Positions 3,300 through 23,993 of a stretch of 37,164 bases of DNA are shown piece by piece. How positions within the stretch are numbered: the stretch's first letter is position 1; the number at the start of each line of letters is the position of its first letter. A program made the position numbers and the translations under genes. The notes under the pieces are model-generated. The model did no database searches. It was given only the letters and a program-made list of their open reading frames with translations, and was not told the origin of the DNA. Source of the DNA: Geobacteraceae bacterium (GTDB lineage: Bacteria > Desulfobacterota > Desulfuromonadia > Desulfuromonadales > BM103). The stretch lies in contig JAHEDT010000030.1 in the NCBI GenBank assembly GCA_024641085.1, forward strand, positions 1 to 37,164, read 5' to 3'.

Positions 3300-3959
3300 T
3301 TAAAGCTTGAGGTTACGCCAGTCGACGGCAGCATAATCCGCGAGGAGGGCCAGGGGGATGAACGTATCCAGTTCATGCCAGGTGCGTCCGGTCAAGGCCC
3401 GGGAAAAATCACCAAACAGGGTCACTTCTTTGGAAAAAACCTCCCGAAATCGCCAGCGCAGAACCTTGCCCGGCAAACTCAACGGATCGCCGGCGTGCAG
3501 TGTACAGACGGTCCCGTCGAAATCTTCTCCGCTGGTATCGATGTTGGGCAAGCCGTGCAGCCGGCAGGTCATCGGCCTGGCCGCATACACCAGGCAATAG
3601 CCGTTCTCATCGAGCAGTGGGCACGGAGTCGGGTCCTCCTCGGCCATGGAGGTCCACTCATCCTCTGGCAGGGCGTTCAGCAGATAGGGCGGTTTGAGTT
3701 CCGGCCAGCGCTGGCACAGCTCGGACAGCCGGGGACGACAGCGGTTGACGACCCCGATCTGGACATCGCCAGACAGATCGGAGAAAGCCTGCTTAAGCAG
3801 CCAGGCATCGAGCAGGGTGATATCGAAGAGGCCGCGGCAGCAGGCGCTGCAGCCACCCCGGCAAGCCAGGGACGAACCGCCGGCCTGCAGGCAGGCCGAG
3901 AACCAGGAGTCCACATCCGTGAGCAGCCGGCGATAAGCATTGAGAGAGTGGGTCAGCAT
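3300..3959 (-). CDS. YkgJ-family cysteine-cluster protein (putative Zn/Fe-binding)
   Basis: A 219-residue protein with the cysteine pattern of the YkgJ family: C33, C37, C40 and C41 in CRGGCSACCRG, then CPLLDENGYCLVYAARPMTC about 80 residues later, followed by RLHG. These cysteines are thought to bind zinc or an iron-sulfur cluster; biochemical roles in the family are poorly known. There is no signal peptide or membrane segment, so it is probably cytoplasmic. It stands alone, converging with the broken Spy-like gene and diverging from the cytochrome b5-like gene. The start at 3959 lacks an obvious Shine-Dalgarno, so a shifted start is possible. Family assignment is good, function unknown. Confidence 0.85.
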   Translation of the reverse strand: MLTHSLNAYRRLLTDVDSWFSACLQAGGSSLACRGGCSACCRGLFDITLLDAWLLKQAFSDLSGDVQIGVVNRCRPRLSELCQRWPELKPPYLLNALPEDEWTSMAEEDPTPCPLLDENGYCLVYAARPMTCRLHGLPNIDTSGEDFDGTVCTLHAGDPLSLPGKVLRWRFREVFSKEVTLFGDFSRALTGRTWHELDTFIPLALLADYAAVDWRNLKL

Positions 3960-20081: not shown

Positions 20082-21464
20082 TTACCCGATCATGATATTT
20101 TCTTCGGCGTACTGGGTTGCATGACGGCGCATTCTCCCGGCGATGGCGAACGCCACGGTCAGAAGGCCGACCCTGCCTGCGAACATCAAGAGGATGATGA
20201 TCCACTTGCCCAAAACGCTCAATTTGGCCGTCGCGCCGATCGACAGACCGACGGTCCCGAACGCTGAGAAGGTTTCAAAGAGGTAACTCAGGAACTCCCG
20301 CTTGTTTTCATGCGCAATATCGGGCGCCTGGACGATCAGCAGGCCAAACAGGGCAATCCCGATCAGAATGCTGGCCAAAATCACCAGCGCCAGAGCCTTG
20401 GTGATGACATCCGTGGGGATGGTCCGCCGGAAAATATTGGTATGAGGACTCCCCTTGAGACGGCTGTAGAAGATCGCTAAGAACAGCGCCAGGCTGGTGG
20501 TCTTGACACCCCCGCCCGCAGACCCCGGGGAAGCGCCGACGAACATCAGGAAAATCATCAGGAACAGCGTTGGTGCACGGAGCACATTCAGGTCGATGGT
20601 GTTGAACCCGGCGGTCCTGGCTGTCACCGATTGGAAGAGCGCCGTCCACACCCCTTCCATCAGAGGCCTCCCGGCCAGGGCACCGTGCATTTCAAGCCAG
20701 CCGATCACCACCGCCCCATAAACAATCAGGCAACCGGAGGTGACCAGAACGATCTTGGTATGCAGGGACAGTTTCACCTTCTGCTTTCTATGTCGGACAC
20801 GGATTCGGCCCACCTGGAGCAATTCCCGAATCACCAGGAAACCGATTCCACCCAGGGTAATCAAGGCCATGATGGTCACGTTGACCAGGGAATCGTTGCG
20901 GAAGCCAACCAGGTTATCGGGGAAGAGGGAAAACCCGGCGTTGCAAAAAGCGGAAATGGAGTGGAAGACCGCTGAGTAGAGACCGGGCCAAAACCCGAGT
21001 TGCGGAATGAAGGCCGCCGACAGCAGAACGGTTCCGACCACTTCGATGATCAAGGTCATGATGACGATGTCATTGATCAGTTCGCGCCACGAACTGATCG
21101 GCGTGTGCATCAGCGTCTCGTTGATGATCCAGCGGCCGCGGGCACTGACCCCGACCCGCAGGTAAATGAACAGGTAGACCGAGAATGTCGTGATACCCAG
21201 CCCGCCGATCTGAATCAGCAACAGGACCACGCCCTGACCGAACAGGCTCAGCCTGGTTCCAGTATCAACCACCACCAGACCGGTGACACACTGTGCGGAG
21301 GTCGCGGTAAACAAGGCGTCCAGGAAGGACAGCGGACTGCCGTTGGCCGCCATTGGCGTCGCCAGCAACACGGCCCCCGTCAGAATAGCCAGGGCATAGG
21401 AAAACATCAGGGCTTGTGCAGGAGAGAACGCTTTAACCCTCATTAAAACCGTGCGCATACTCAT
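20082..21464 (-). CDS. ktrB: KtrB-type potassium channel subunit
   Basis: A 460-residue polytopic membrane protein of the Ktr/Trk/HKT superfamily. Pore loops appear as TATSAQCVTGLVVVDTG (the CVTGLVVVDTG form is characteristic of KtrB), SISAFCNAGFSLFPDNL, SVTARTAGFNTIDL and FSAFGTVGLSIG. GASPGSAGGGVKTT is the conserved third-repeat segment. The ATG at 21464 is tentative; ATG 21458 is in frame and neither has a strong Shine-Dalgarno. It is the promoter-proximal gene of the ktrBA pair. It opens into the long gene-free gap at 21465-21957, which should hold its promoter, although I found no convincing hexamers. Confidence 0.93.
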   Translation of the reverse strand: MSMRTVLMRVKAFSPAQALMFSYALAILTGAVLLATPMAANGSPLSFLDALFTATSAQCVTGLVVVDTGTRLSLFGQGVVLLLIQIGGLGITTFSVYLFIYLRVGVSARGRWIINETLMHTPISSWRELINDIVIMTLIIEVVGTVLLSAAFIPQLGFWPGLYSAVFHSISAFCNAGFSLFPDNLVGFRNDSLVNVTIMALITLGGIGFLVIRELLQVGRIRVRHRKQKVKLSLHTKIVLVTSGCLIVYGAVVIGWLEMHGALAGRPLMEGVWTALFQSVTARTAGFNTIDLNVLRAPTLFLMIFLMFVGASPGSAGGGVKTTSLALFLAIFYSRLKGSPHTNIFRRTIPTDVITKALALVILASILIGIALFGLLIVQAPDIAHENKREFLSYLFETFSAFGTVGLSIGATAKLSVLGKWIIILLMFAGRVGLLTVAFAIAGRMRRHATQYAEENIMIG

Positions 21465-21957
21465 CTTTGCTTCAAGGCTTTCTCTTGACGCAACAGGTTA
21501 TCGATGCCGGGAGGATGACCACTGCGCAAAAACCTCCCCAAGGATCATGATAAATATACCAGCTTCTGGGGCCCGAAGCACTCATGCTCATGAGTTTAAA
21601 CATCCTCACCCCTGCCCCCAAACCCTGCAGACCACCGCCCGGGGCATCTGGCCGGCATTGTAAATTAGGAGCGACGGCCCAGGCTCCGGCGCGGGCTCAT
21701 GGGACTTCAGGCAGGGGGCATCCAGGGCAACCGGCACCTCGACCAGAGGCACTGAAGGCGCACAAAAAATGGCCCCCATCCAATGGATGGGGGCCCCCCT
21801 GTCGAACAAATAACAATCCCTCTCTTCGTATCAATCAGCAAGCCTGCAAACACAAGCGATATTTGTTGCGGTTATGATACACAAGCCCTCTCACAAATTT
21901 CTCACAGCGCTTGTGTACGGCAGCAACCATCACGTCCTGGTCAGTGACCAGTCTTTT
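21465..21957. other. Gene-free gap of about 490 bp with structured elements
   Basis: No convincing protein gene is present on either strand. Part of it must hold the ktrB promoter, but hexamers are poor. From 21763 to 21958 it holds a strong minus-strand terminator, then inverted repeats and a plus-strand terminator-like hairpin. In detail: GTATCA (21828-21833) can pair with TGATAC (21875-21880). CGCTTGTGT (21908-21916) can pair with ACACAAGCG (21850-21858) or ACACAAGC (21879-21886). This suggests a structured RNA, either a free plus-strand RNA or the 3' untranslated region of the response regulator transcript. The 21465-21760 part shows nothing else I can support. Confidence 0.45.
21763..21795 (-). 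terminator. Strong rho-independent terminator of the degP-to-regulator operon
   Basis: GGCCCCCATCC (21771-21781) and GGATGGGGGCC (21785-21795) form a perfect 11-bp stem with a 3-base AAT/ATT loop. Read on the minus strand, the stem is followed by A and then TTTTTT (21769-21764). It lies about 160 bp past the stop of the BTAD response regulator gene. The plus strand lacks a T-run after the stem, so termination is one-directional. Confidence 0.85.
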
Positions 21958-21958
21958 T
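21937..21958 (+). terminator. Terminator-like hairpin on the plus strand, in the gap
   Basis: CTGGTC and GACCAG enclose AGT (21937-21951) and are followed by TCTTTTT ending at 21958. On the plus strand this is a short rho-independent terminator shape. No annotated plus-strand gene precedes it. The T-run overlaps the stop codon of the convergent response regulator gene. It may also be just an operator-like palindrome. Confidence 0.4.
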
Positions 21959-23172
21959 CAGGCCCCGGCCAGCCAGCCCTTCGGCAGGGAGATCCTGGCA
22001 AAATCATCTAGCGCTTCCTGCACCTCATCTCCGTTGAAGCCTTCCCTGATCAGGGCTTCAGTGTATTGCTTGAGCGCCTGTTTGGCCTGACCGGGATTGT
22101 CTTCCGCCAGGCACAACTGGTAGAGCAGCCGGGAGACACTGTCGTTAGCGGGGTCGTAGCGCAGGGCCCCGCGCAACAGCTTGGCGGCTGGCTGGTAGCG
22201 CTTGCTCTCAGCGAGCAGGCGGGCAAAGGTCAGGCTGGTCTCCAGGTAAAGCTGCTCCATGTCGTTCTGAAACACTGAAGCCGCGTCAACGCCAAAGCCT
22301 CCCGGCAAAAAGGTGCCCTGCCAGAGGCTGAACGCCGAGGAAAAAGTGATTTCCGCCGGCCAGAAATCGCCGGCCGCAACCTGCTGGTTCCCCTTGCGGG
22401 CCAGGCGGCGAAACTCATGGCAGTCAATCCGGGCATTTTCCAGGAAGAGATAGCCACGCTTGACCACCAGGTACTTTTTACTGTCGATCGGTTCAAGGAC
22501 CTGATCAAGCGTGCGCCGCACGCGTGACAGGAGGGAGTCAAAGCTCGAGCGAGCCCTGCTTGGCGGGCTGTCCGGCCAGAGTGCCAGTTGGACCTCGTCC
22601 TGGGAGACCTTGCCGTCAGGTGCAGCCAGCAGCATGGCCATGAGCTGGCGTTGCGCCGGGCTGAACTCCTCGTCCCAGGAGAGCCGATGATCGTCAATGA
22701 GCAATTCACATTTGCCAAGGGATTTGATGATGAGCTTTGGCGTGTCGATCTCTCCGGCGGGCATGGCTCCTGGATCAGGCGCCGCTGTCTCGCGACTTCT
22801 GCCGCGGCGCAAGAGTGTTTTGACACGCGCCAACAACAGTTTCGGCGAGAAAGGCTTCGTCATGTAGTCGTCGGCACCGACCTCCAGTCCGGCGACAATA
22901 TCATCTTCTTCGGTTTTTCCGGTCAGCATGAGGACCGGTAGTTTGCTCATCCATGGATCCTGACGAACGGCACGGCAGACATCCAACCCGTTCATCTCCG
23001 GGAGGTTGAGGTCGAGGACGATCACATCCGGTGGATCCTCCTCGATCTGCTGCAGGGCAGCTTCACCGCTCTGAACAACCGAAGTCCGGTATCCGGCTTT
23101 GTCCAGGCAGGAAAAAAGCAACTCGCAAACGCTGGGATCGTCTTCGACAATCAGGACATATGCCCTGTCCAT
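21958..23172 (-). CDS. Response regulator with winged-helix and BTAD domains
   Basis: A 404-residue regulator in three parts. The receiver (1-120) has E10-D11-D12, phospho-acceptor D54 in VIVLDLNLPEMNG, T84 and K106 (YMTKPF). An OmpR/SARP-like winged helix follows at about 145-245, with a FSPAQRQLMAMLL start and YLVVKRGYLFLE at the wing. A BTAD-type helical domain (about 255-390) starts at ARIDCHEFRRLARKG and ends with TPR-like repeats (YQPAAKLLRGALRYDPANDS). BTAD domains are best known from actinobacterial SARP activators. ATG 23172 is used because the receiver begins right after it; GAGAGG lies about 10 bases upstream. The frame extends to 23289 but overlaps the next gene. It ends the degP-rluD-pgeF operon, with no kinase adjacent. 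Confidence 0.9.
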   Translation of the reverse strand: MDRAYVLIVEDDPSVCELLFSCLDKAGYRTSVVQSGEAALQQIEEDPPDVIVLDLNLPEMNGLDVCRAVRQDPWMSKLPVLMLTGKTEEDDIVAGLEVGADDYMTKPFSPKLLLARVKTLLRRGRSRETAAPDPGAMPAGEIDTPKLIIKSLGKCELLIDDHRLSWDEEFSPAQRQLMAMLLAAPDGKVSQDEVQLALWPDSPPSRARSSFDSLLSRVRRTLDQVLEPIDSKKYLVVKRGYLFLENARIDCHEFRRLARKGNQQVAAGDFWPAEITFSSAFSLWQGTFLPGGFGVDAASVFQNDMEQLYLETSLTFARLLAESKRYQPAAKLLRGALRYDPANDSVSRLLYQLCLAEDNPGQAKQALKQYTEALIREGFNGDEVQEALDDFARISLPKGWLAGA

Positions 23173-23198: not shown

Positions 23199-23993
23199 TT
23201 AGCGCAGCAAAGCGAAGCCCATCTGGCGACCTGTTCTGCCATGATCGCGCCGATAGGAAAAAAATGTCTCCTTGTGACAGCAGGTACATTCCTTGACGAT
23301 GTCAGCCGCGGTCCGTTCGACACCGGCCTCATCAAGCTGGAGCAGAGTGCTCTGCTGCAAATCCAGCTGCCAGTGGCCAAGACTGGTCTCCGTGGCAATT
23401 CTACCCCACTGGTCGGTCCCCTGGCGAAAGGCGTCGCGCACCGGGCGGTCGACCTCGTAACTGTGAGCGGCGATTCCAGGACCGATCGATGCACAGAGAT
23501 TCCCCGGCAGGCAGCCAAAAATCTCCTGCATTGCTCTCACTGTCCGCCCAAGCAGGCCGGCGGCAGTGCCGCGCCAGCCGAGATGGATGACCGCGGCGAC
23601 ATGTTTTTGCCGGTCGTAAAGGATGACCGGGAAACAATCGGCAACCAGGATACCGATCAGGATATTGTGCTGGTTGGTGATAATTGCATCGCTATTGACG
23701 CGCTGGAAATGGGACACTTCGGGATTGGGCTGGTCGATCACCAGTATTTCACTGCCGTGAACCTGATTGACCGTCAAAAGCAGGTGTGGCTCCAGTTCAA
23801 AAGCCCTGGCGACGGCAGCCCGGTTGGCGTCCACCTGCGACGGCTGGTCACCGGAATTGAAACCGAGATTGAGCGAGTTGAAAGGTGGCCGGCTGCTGCC
23901 CCCATTACGGGTGGTGAATCCGCACACCAGGTTGTCCCGGTCCGCCCAGGCCGGCTGCAGGTAATGAATTTTGCCCTGTTTAACTGTTTTCAT
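23199..23993 (-). CDS. pgeF: PgeF/YfiH-type multicopper-oxidase-fold (laccase domain) protein
   Basis: A 264-residue DUF152/YfiH-family protein. Conserved motifs are TTRNGGSS, NQVHGSEI, VADCFPVI, IHLGWRGT and a C-terminal cysteine pair in ECTCCHKETFFSYRRD, which supply the metal-binding histidine/cysteine sites. E. coli YfiH (PgeF) is reported to remove wrongly incorporated L-serine from peptidoglycan precursors; older annotations say polyphenol oxidase or laccase, and some relatives act as purine-nucleoside enzymes. ATG 23993 overlaps the end of rluD by 14 bp, so translation is coupled; the rluD-yfiH pairing is common in bacteria and supports the call. Confidence 0.92.
   Translation of the reverse strand: MKTVKQGKIHYLQPAWADRDNLVCGFTTRNGGSSRPPFNSLNLGFNSGDQPSQVDANRAAVARAFELEPHLLLTVNQVHGSEILVIDQPNPEVSHFQRVNSDAIITNQHNILIGILVADCFPVILYDRQKHVAAVIHLGWRGTAAGLLGRTVRAMQEIFGCLPGNLCASIGPGIAAHSYEVDRPVRDAFRQGTDQWGRIATETSLGHWQLDLQQSTLLQLDEAGVERTAADIVKECTCCHKETFFSYRRDHGRTGRQMGFALLR

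Follow-up and report, generated by a model that had tools for sequence, protein, structure and literature searches.

The window, that is, the whole 37,164-nt stretch of DNA that was analysed, contains a gap (positions 21465–21957) between two minus-strand genes, trkH (20082–21464) and a response-regulator gene, upstream of which lies pgeF (about 23199–23993, minus strand). Because both flanking genes are on the minus strand, the gap sequence is the 3′ region of the regulator gene. An alignment of 16 copies of the locus, pattern searches and a terminator scan revealed a set of minus-strand features in this region: a tandem-heptamer box, a −10 element, a predicted RNA with a nearly invariant core, and an intrinsic terminator (Table 1). 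Within the box, the first TGAGA and the second TGAG are invariant in the 15 relatives. The −10 element stands 10 nt after the 17-bp box core, with 9 nt between the second heptamer and the −10. In the alignment the predicted RNA starts about 6 nt after the −10, from which we infer a 5′ end at about 21867 (±2 nt).

The strong minus-strand terminator at 21795–21771, which had been pointed out in a preliminary description of this DNA, was recovered by the scan, and covariation supports its hairpin. It is the only minus-strand terminator found by the scan between the regulator stop codon and 21795, and it may end both the sRNA and the regulator mRNA. Outside the terminator, the 16-sequence alignment contains no covarying helix; a possible internal helix of the sRNA, TTGCAGGCTT/GGGTTTGTAA, is paired at 79.4% (shuffles, 80.3%; 30–47% when slid) and does not covary. 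A small ORF within the sRNA was rejected, as no reading frame is conserved. The window gave no Rfam match at the gathering score, the four sub-threshold matches in the gap having E-values of 1.1–9.7, and no Rfam family was found for the small RNAs described here. Searches of openly licensed (CC) PMC papers brought up no title on this sRNA. Judged from the sequence, the gap holds a conserved small non-coding RNA gene on the minus strand, with its own activator-type promoter and terminator and with predicted transcription. The unit has the sequence properties by which bacterial intergenic and 3′-UTR sRNAs are recognized: a conserved promoter, a short non-coding unit, an intrinsic terminator and no conserved frame. 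The predicted sRNA family is new; its kind is known.

Table 1. Coordinates of features in the window and in related loci
Feature	Locus	Position	Strand	Basis or remark
Response regulator, 404 aa (receiver, OmpR/SARP-type winged helix, BTAD)	Window	21958–23172	−	Pfam, predicted fold
Terminator-like hairpin of the preliminary description	Window	21937–21957	+	Scan; conservation test came out against it
Putative activator box, TGTGAGA-N4-TGTGAGA, period 11 bp	Window	21889–21906	−	Alignment, pattern search
−10 element TATCAT (relatives mostly TATANT)	Window	21874–21879	−	Alignment, pattern search
Predicted sRNA, about 104 nt	Window	21764–21867	−	Alignment, sRNA model
sRNA core GTTTGCAGGC	Window	21842–21851	−	Invariant but for one C/T position, 16 sequences
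Intrinsic terminator hairpin	Window	21771–21795	−	Scan, covariation; followed by A and T6 (21764–21769)
Second RNA	L011	900–974
Second RNA	L015	1407–1481
Second RNA	L016	1429–1504
Second RNA	L017	1833–1901
Second RNA	L019	1493–1570
Second RNA	L021	1456–1526
Second RNA	L023	1410–1485
Second RNA	L058	1668–1741
Polysaccharide genes behind boxes	L088, L089, L093; L150 and L154 (family f5)
Receiver-PilZ behind boxes	L090, L157
Receiver-GAF-GGDEF behind box	L097
Histidine kinase behind box	L092
PKD-repeat protein behind box	L083

Competing hairpins and other readings of the gap

The preliminary description had proposed that CGCTTGTGT (21908–21916) pairs with either ACACAAGCG (21850–21858) or ACACAAGC (21879–21886), that GTATCA (21828–21833) and TGATAC (21875–21880) close another helix, and that alternative pairings like these are typical of regulatory RNAs. 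The strings are present at these positions, and the exact 8- and 9-bp complementarities, which are rare in shuffled sequence, speak for an RNA of the plus strand, or of both strands, that switches between two hairpins. Of 2000 dinucleotide shuffles of 21800–21936, 27 produced a perfect 9-bp inverted repeat and none an 8-mer with two reverse-complement partners; when the window was divided into 271 equal tiles, 11 held a 9-bp inverted repeat and one a doubly paired 8-mer. The inverted repeats of the gap are unusual, occurring more rarely than by chance, and such rarity in a single sequence is no evidence for an RNA switch. Fold z-scores of −3.9 (plus strand) and −4.7 (minus strand) also favour such an RNA, but the folded stretch includes the strong terminator hairpin. 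A sigma-70 scan found no plus-strand promoter, although it failed to flag the minus-strand promoter, which has no −35 element, as well.

Comparison with relatives argues against the switch. Across the 16 aligned sequences the three proposed helices paired at 50.3, 51.6 and 65.5%, as against 50.1, 50.6 and 62.9% for shuffled columns, with 256, 202 and 29 of 500 shuffles as high; the helix with the highest value shows one double change. By the same measure the minus-strand terminator paired at 87.5% (shuffled, 81.8%; 0 of 500 as high) with 13 double-change cells, so that the covariation check suggested in the preliminary description supports this terminator alone. The plus-strand terminator-like hairpin is present in the scan, with arms CTGGTC/GACCAG at 21937–21951 and a T-rich tail, but is not conserved in relatives (40.8% pairing versus 36.2%; 84 of 500 shuffles as high) and is probably incidental.

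The proposed arms lie largely in promoter elements. TGATAC overlaps the minus-strand −10, the GTATCA/TGATAC helix being among those that pair near the shuffled level; ACACAAGC sits in the spacer between box and −10, sharing one base with the −10; and CGCTTGTGT is upstream of the activator box. None of the three is therefore within the predicted RNA. The sequence upstream of the box, which holds one arm of both hairpins, is poorly conserved. The two competing hairpins are thus largely promoter DNA and are not conserved; a two-state, riboswitch-like RNA was rejected, since its exclusive helices lack covariation and their pair counts are near those of shuffles, and we give the switch almost no credence. 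What stands of the original proposal is a regulatory RNA in the gap, here as a conserved sRNA gene; its strand, which is minus and not plus, its extent and its mechanism had to be revised.

The suggestion that the RNA derives from the 3′-UTR of the BTAD regulator transcript came close in linking it to the regulator's 3′ region, but a conserved promoter layout of its own precedes the RNA. A purely processed RNA of the regulator mRNA, with the box serving some other purpose, would fit the common orientation and the single terminator behind the regulator gene. We consider it improbable, because relatives keep the layout of box, exact 10-nt spacing and −10 immediately ahead of the RNA, and other genes are preceded by it too. 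It is also unlikely that the block consists of a terminator and regulatory DNA and yields only a leader or decay product. Such a reading would account for the lack of covarying helices outside the terminator and of a detectable coding frame or RNA target, but not for the 10-nt core, which varies at one C/T position and lies inside the RNA and outside the promoter, nor for a second RNA, strongly covarying and preceded by the same box, that is found nearby in several relatives.

Conservation and linkage to the regulator

A nucleotide search of 58 genomes found the block at E ≤ 1e-10 in seven other genomes of the family, at 74–85% identity. The regulator gene is present in 14 of the 15 loci from this search, the exception being L023; trkH stands beside it, within the 1.6–3.5-kb stretches examined for these 15 loci, only in the same-genus relative L009. 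The stretch fetched for L023, which has no regulator gene, carries a second, 5′-truncated sRNA copy (1613–1694) beside the second RNA, and a full copy is found on another contig of that genome.

Among 136 genomes of the order, the regulator was detected at E ≤ 1e-100 in 21, all of them from family f1 (21 of 22 f1 genomes). The sRNA model matched 17 of these 21 at E ≤ 1e-8; 16 had supplied sequences to the model and one, G005, had not. The match in G017 runs up to a contig end. In 18 genomes the start of the RNA follows the end of the regulator match at a distance of 47–211 nt and on the regulator's strand, and the sRNA is located directly behind the regulator in 18 of 19 testable genomes of the family, G013 and G020 not being testable as a contig end truncates the regulator gene. 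In G003 the regulator is diverged, and neither box nor RNA lies behind the gene. A count over named loci, which overlaps the order-wide count and is not independent of it, gave box plus core in 16 of the 17 loci with at least 145 nt behind the gene, the exception being L077, whose regulator is 35% identical; 21 named loci have a regulator match and 19 a longer one, two of the latter ending at the gene. With the threshold relaxed to E ≤ 0.01, the sRNA model matched 38 of the 136 genomes. The 25 weaker rows have E-values of 1.3e-4 to 0.01, and in 16 of them the match is confined to the 3′ part of the model.

The SARP-type regulator and the box regulon

Pfam matched Response_reg and BTAD in the regulator, whereas the winged helix was not called at E ≤ 0.001. 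The predicted structure of the C-terminal 267 residues (mean pLDDT 87.9) matched AfsR on the afsS promoter with a Z-score of 18.4 (241 residues, 3.8 Å) and EmbR with 18.1, the next rows being at 13.6; when the whole regulator was compared, the match list was filled by receiver domains. Pfam BTAD, secondary structure and fold together reveal an OmpR-type winged helix followed by BTAD, the arrangement that defines a SARP.

In the AfsR-afsS system of Streptomyces the two genes are adjacent, and afsS encodes a small protein. The regulator studied here shares the SARP domain with AfsR, but has a receiver domain and lacks the NOD and TPR parts, and the unit behind it is, unlike afsS, without a conserved frame. 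The afsS promoter carries two 11-bp direct repeats beside the −10, as far as described in the sections of PMC10936776 used here, and two direct repeats of the same period stand beside the −10 in the present promoter. According to the same sections, SARP promoters have repeats 11 or 22 bp apart, with the last repeat 8 bp from the −10 (PMC10936776); here the period is exactly 11 and the gap to the −10 is 9 nt rather than 8.

A strict pattern of box, 10 nt and TATANT (at most two mismatches) yielded 97 sites in 25 of the 136 genomes, compared with two for the reversed-pattern control; 78 sites are in f1, and 18 are promoters of this sRNA. A SARP-domain protein (E ≤ 1e-20) is encoded by 86 of the 136 genomes, among them all 25 box-positive ones, and none of the 50 SARP-lacking genomes has the box (Fisher 3.6e-6, uncorrected for kinship, which inflates the co-occurrence; outside f1, 6 of 65 versus 0 of 49, p 0.036). 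At this stringency 61 of the 86 SARP-positive genomes are without a box. In box-positive f5 and f8 genomes the SARP proteins are all larger and distant. Reading of the box thus need not fall to the adjacent regulator, and another SARP protein may share or own it. The adjacent regulator is the likely activator of the sRNA.

Pho boxes also have an 11-bp period, and among NCBIfam models PhoB scores best against the regulator, though far below the cut-off; both would fit a PhoB-type (phosphate) promoter driving the RNA. The box was, however, missing at up to three mismatches from all 18 regions upstream of PBP_like_2 genes, about four of which are imperfectly placed (L130 and L140 likely on the wrong strand, L131 and L136 with an over-extended start). 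CTAACA-type repeats are seen there instead by eye in L138, L139, L141 and L142, and the E. coli Pho-box pattern was not found in the 18 regions either. On the absence of the box upstream of these phosphate-binding-protein genes PhoB was rejected as the regulator, and we hold a phosphate promoter to be very improbable.

Boxes of this kind are also found ahead of polysaccharide genes, receiver proteins and c-di-GMP-I(-GGC) riboswitches. Ten hand-chosen ORFs behind strict or looser boxes gave matches that include Capsule_synth, GDP_Man_Dehyd, Poly_export, Polysacc_synt_2, REC-PilZ, REC-GAF-GGDEF and histidine kinase (Table 1). Rfam identified 12 c-di-GMP-I or c-di-GMP-I-GGC aptamers in 9 of 18 loci, a count that is no enrichment test because the loci were picked, several for their riboswitch-leader look. 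Eight box sites, distinct by position, are followed on the same strand by at least one such aptamer. The window's own genome has just one further perfect 17-bp box (L083, about 3730); it lies upstream of a c-di-GMP-I-GGC aptamer (3526–3611), and this leader precedes the PKD-repeat protein gene. Three tandem c-di-GMP-I-GGC aptamers stand behind a single box in L099 (2853–3306), and L026 (1545–1595) has, in one genome, five head-to-tail heptamer copies at 11-bp spacing.

Proposed function and related RNAs

Conservation, promoter layout, terminator covariation, linkage and genome-wide box enrichment were computed here; transcription, activator identity, base-pairing action and targets are what we infer beyond them. 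With a probability of roughly 0.7, the locus is a SARP-activated sRNA gene in the 3′ region of its regulator's gene and part of a surface/biofilm regulon. The sRNA would be transcribed from its own minus-strand promoter within the 3′ region of the receiver-SARP regulator gene. The activated regulator, or another SARP-domain protein of the cell, would bind the tandem heptamers beside the −10 and recruit RNA polymerase, and the transcript would stop at the intrinsic terminator, possibly in common with the regulator mRNA. Its mode of action would most likely be base pairing in trans, as is usually inferred for RNAs of this type, and it could serve a regulon of surface-polysaccharide, receiver-PilZ, GGDEF and cyclic-dinucleotide-riboswitch genes as its post-transcriptional arm.

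The base-pairing step is weak, because the core is largely paired and no targets emerged. The core has a predicted mean unpaired probability of 0.02–0.51 in the 16 RNAs. A search for its complement gave 67 sites in 22 genomes (reversed control pattern, 10), of which 50 were inspected; six flagged sites are the sRNA gene itself, and no recurrent 5′-UTR target of AGCCTGCAAAC was seen among the 50. Two in-frame offsets recur among the sites (L242, L256 and L261; L238 and L240). A biofilm regulon would also suit a CsrA-sequestering RNA, but the 16 RNAs have only 0–2 GGA motifs outside the last 38 nt, 10 of them having none. A CsrB/RsmZ-type RNA was rejected as several GGA motifs in loops are not present, and CsrA sequestration is barely plausible here.

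Type I 3′-UTR sRNAs have their own promoter within or after the mRNA 3′ end. The proposed sRNA gene agrees with them in position and shared terminator, and differs by its SARP-type box and by a promoter just after the stop codon. CiaR of Streptococcus pneumoniae is not known to be a SARP. In PMC4295557 it is described as a response regulator driving the expression of several sRNA genes (csRNAs) alongside protein genes, a likeness to the present system by description and not by RNA sequence. GSU1771 of G. sulfurreducens, a receiver-SARP regulator, controls exopolysaccharide and electron-transfer genes according to the portions of PMC10599522 and PMC7962754 cited here. It is likened to our regulator by description and not by orthology: the domain content is the same as described there, and the theme overlaps that of the box regulon. 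By analogy, a comparable surface/biofilm programme may have this sRNA as its RNA arm; PMC10599522 nowhere uses the term sRNA. GSU1771 differs in acting largely as a repressor, exopolysaccharide genes, pilA and cytochromes rising in the deletion mutant (PMC10599522). Activation of the sRNA is therefore not a given; control might run in either direction, and the box in the −35 place would fit activation.

The initial hairpin observation thus becomes a precise, testable gene, a candidate sRNA family that has a defined promoter and is linked to a regulator sharing its domain make-up with GSU1771 (exopolysaccharide, extracellular electron transfer). If our reading holds, the programme by which these bacteria govern biofilm and electron transfer includes a post-transcriptional arm, and the SARP box can be used for predicting the regulon.

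A second RNA, preceded by an activator box of the same kind, lies near the first in several f1 genomes (Table 1). Its two helices show strong covariation (25 double-change cells; none of 500 shuffles as high), and all 8 sequences carry RCCUCC, an anti-Shine-Dalgarno motif, between a small hairpin and the strongly covarying terminator. Its model matched 12 f1 genomes at E ≤ 1e-4, eight of which had built it, with weaker matches in 19 genomes outside f1; the window's genome had none at E ≤ 1e-4. As a tentative extension that may well prove wrong, SARP-type response regulators in Desulfuromonadales could run an RNA arm consisting of a pgeF/regulator-linked sRNA and often a second sRNA with exposed RCCUCC. 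The same box would drive both RNAs along with exopolysaccharide and cyclic-dinucleotide-riboswitch genes, allowing a single regulator to set biofilm output at transcription and translation simultaneously. If this were true, analogous box-driven RNAs behind pgeF in other families would point to an old, order-wide circuit.

Box-like sites were found behind pgeF in 6 of 40 loci fetched. In L186, L188, L203 and L204 the box is followed by a short RNA-like unit with a strong terminator hairpin, and L187 perhaps has a unit of the same kind. The f5 loci L121/L147 and L122 show the same arrangement behind pgeF, whereas in L118 and L119 it is located away from pgeF. The units in L186, L188, L203, L204, L121, L122, L118 and L119, mostly behind pgeF and from other families, have a G-run before a C/G-rich terminator; these units lack the GTTTGCAGGC core and are therefore termed analogous. 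The gene that comes next in L186 and L203 resembles, by eye, the end of trkH.
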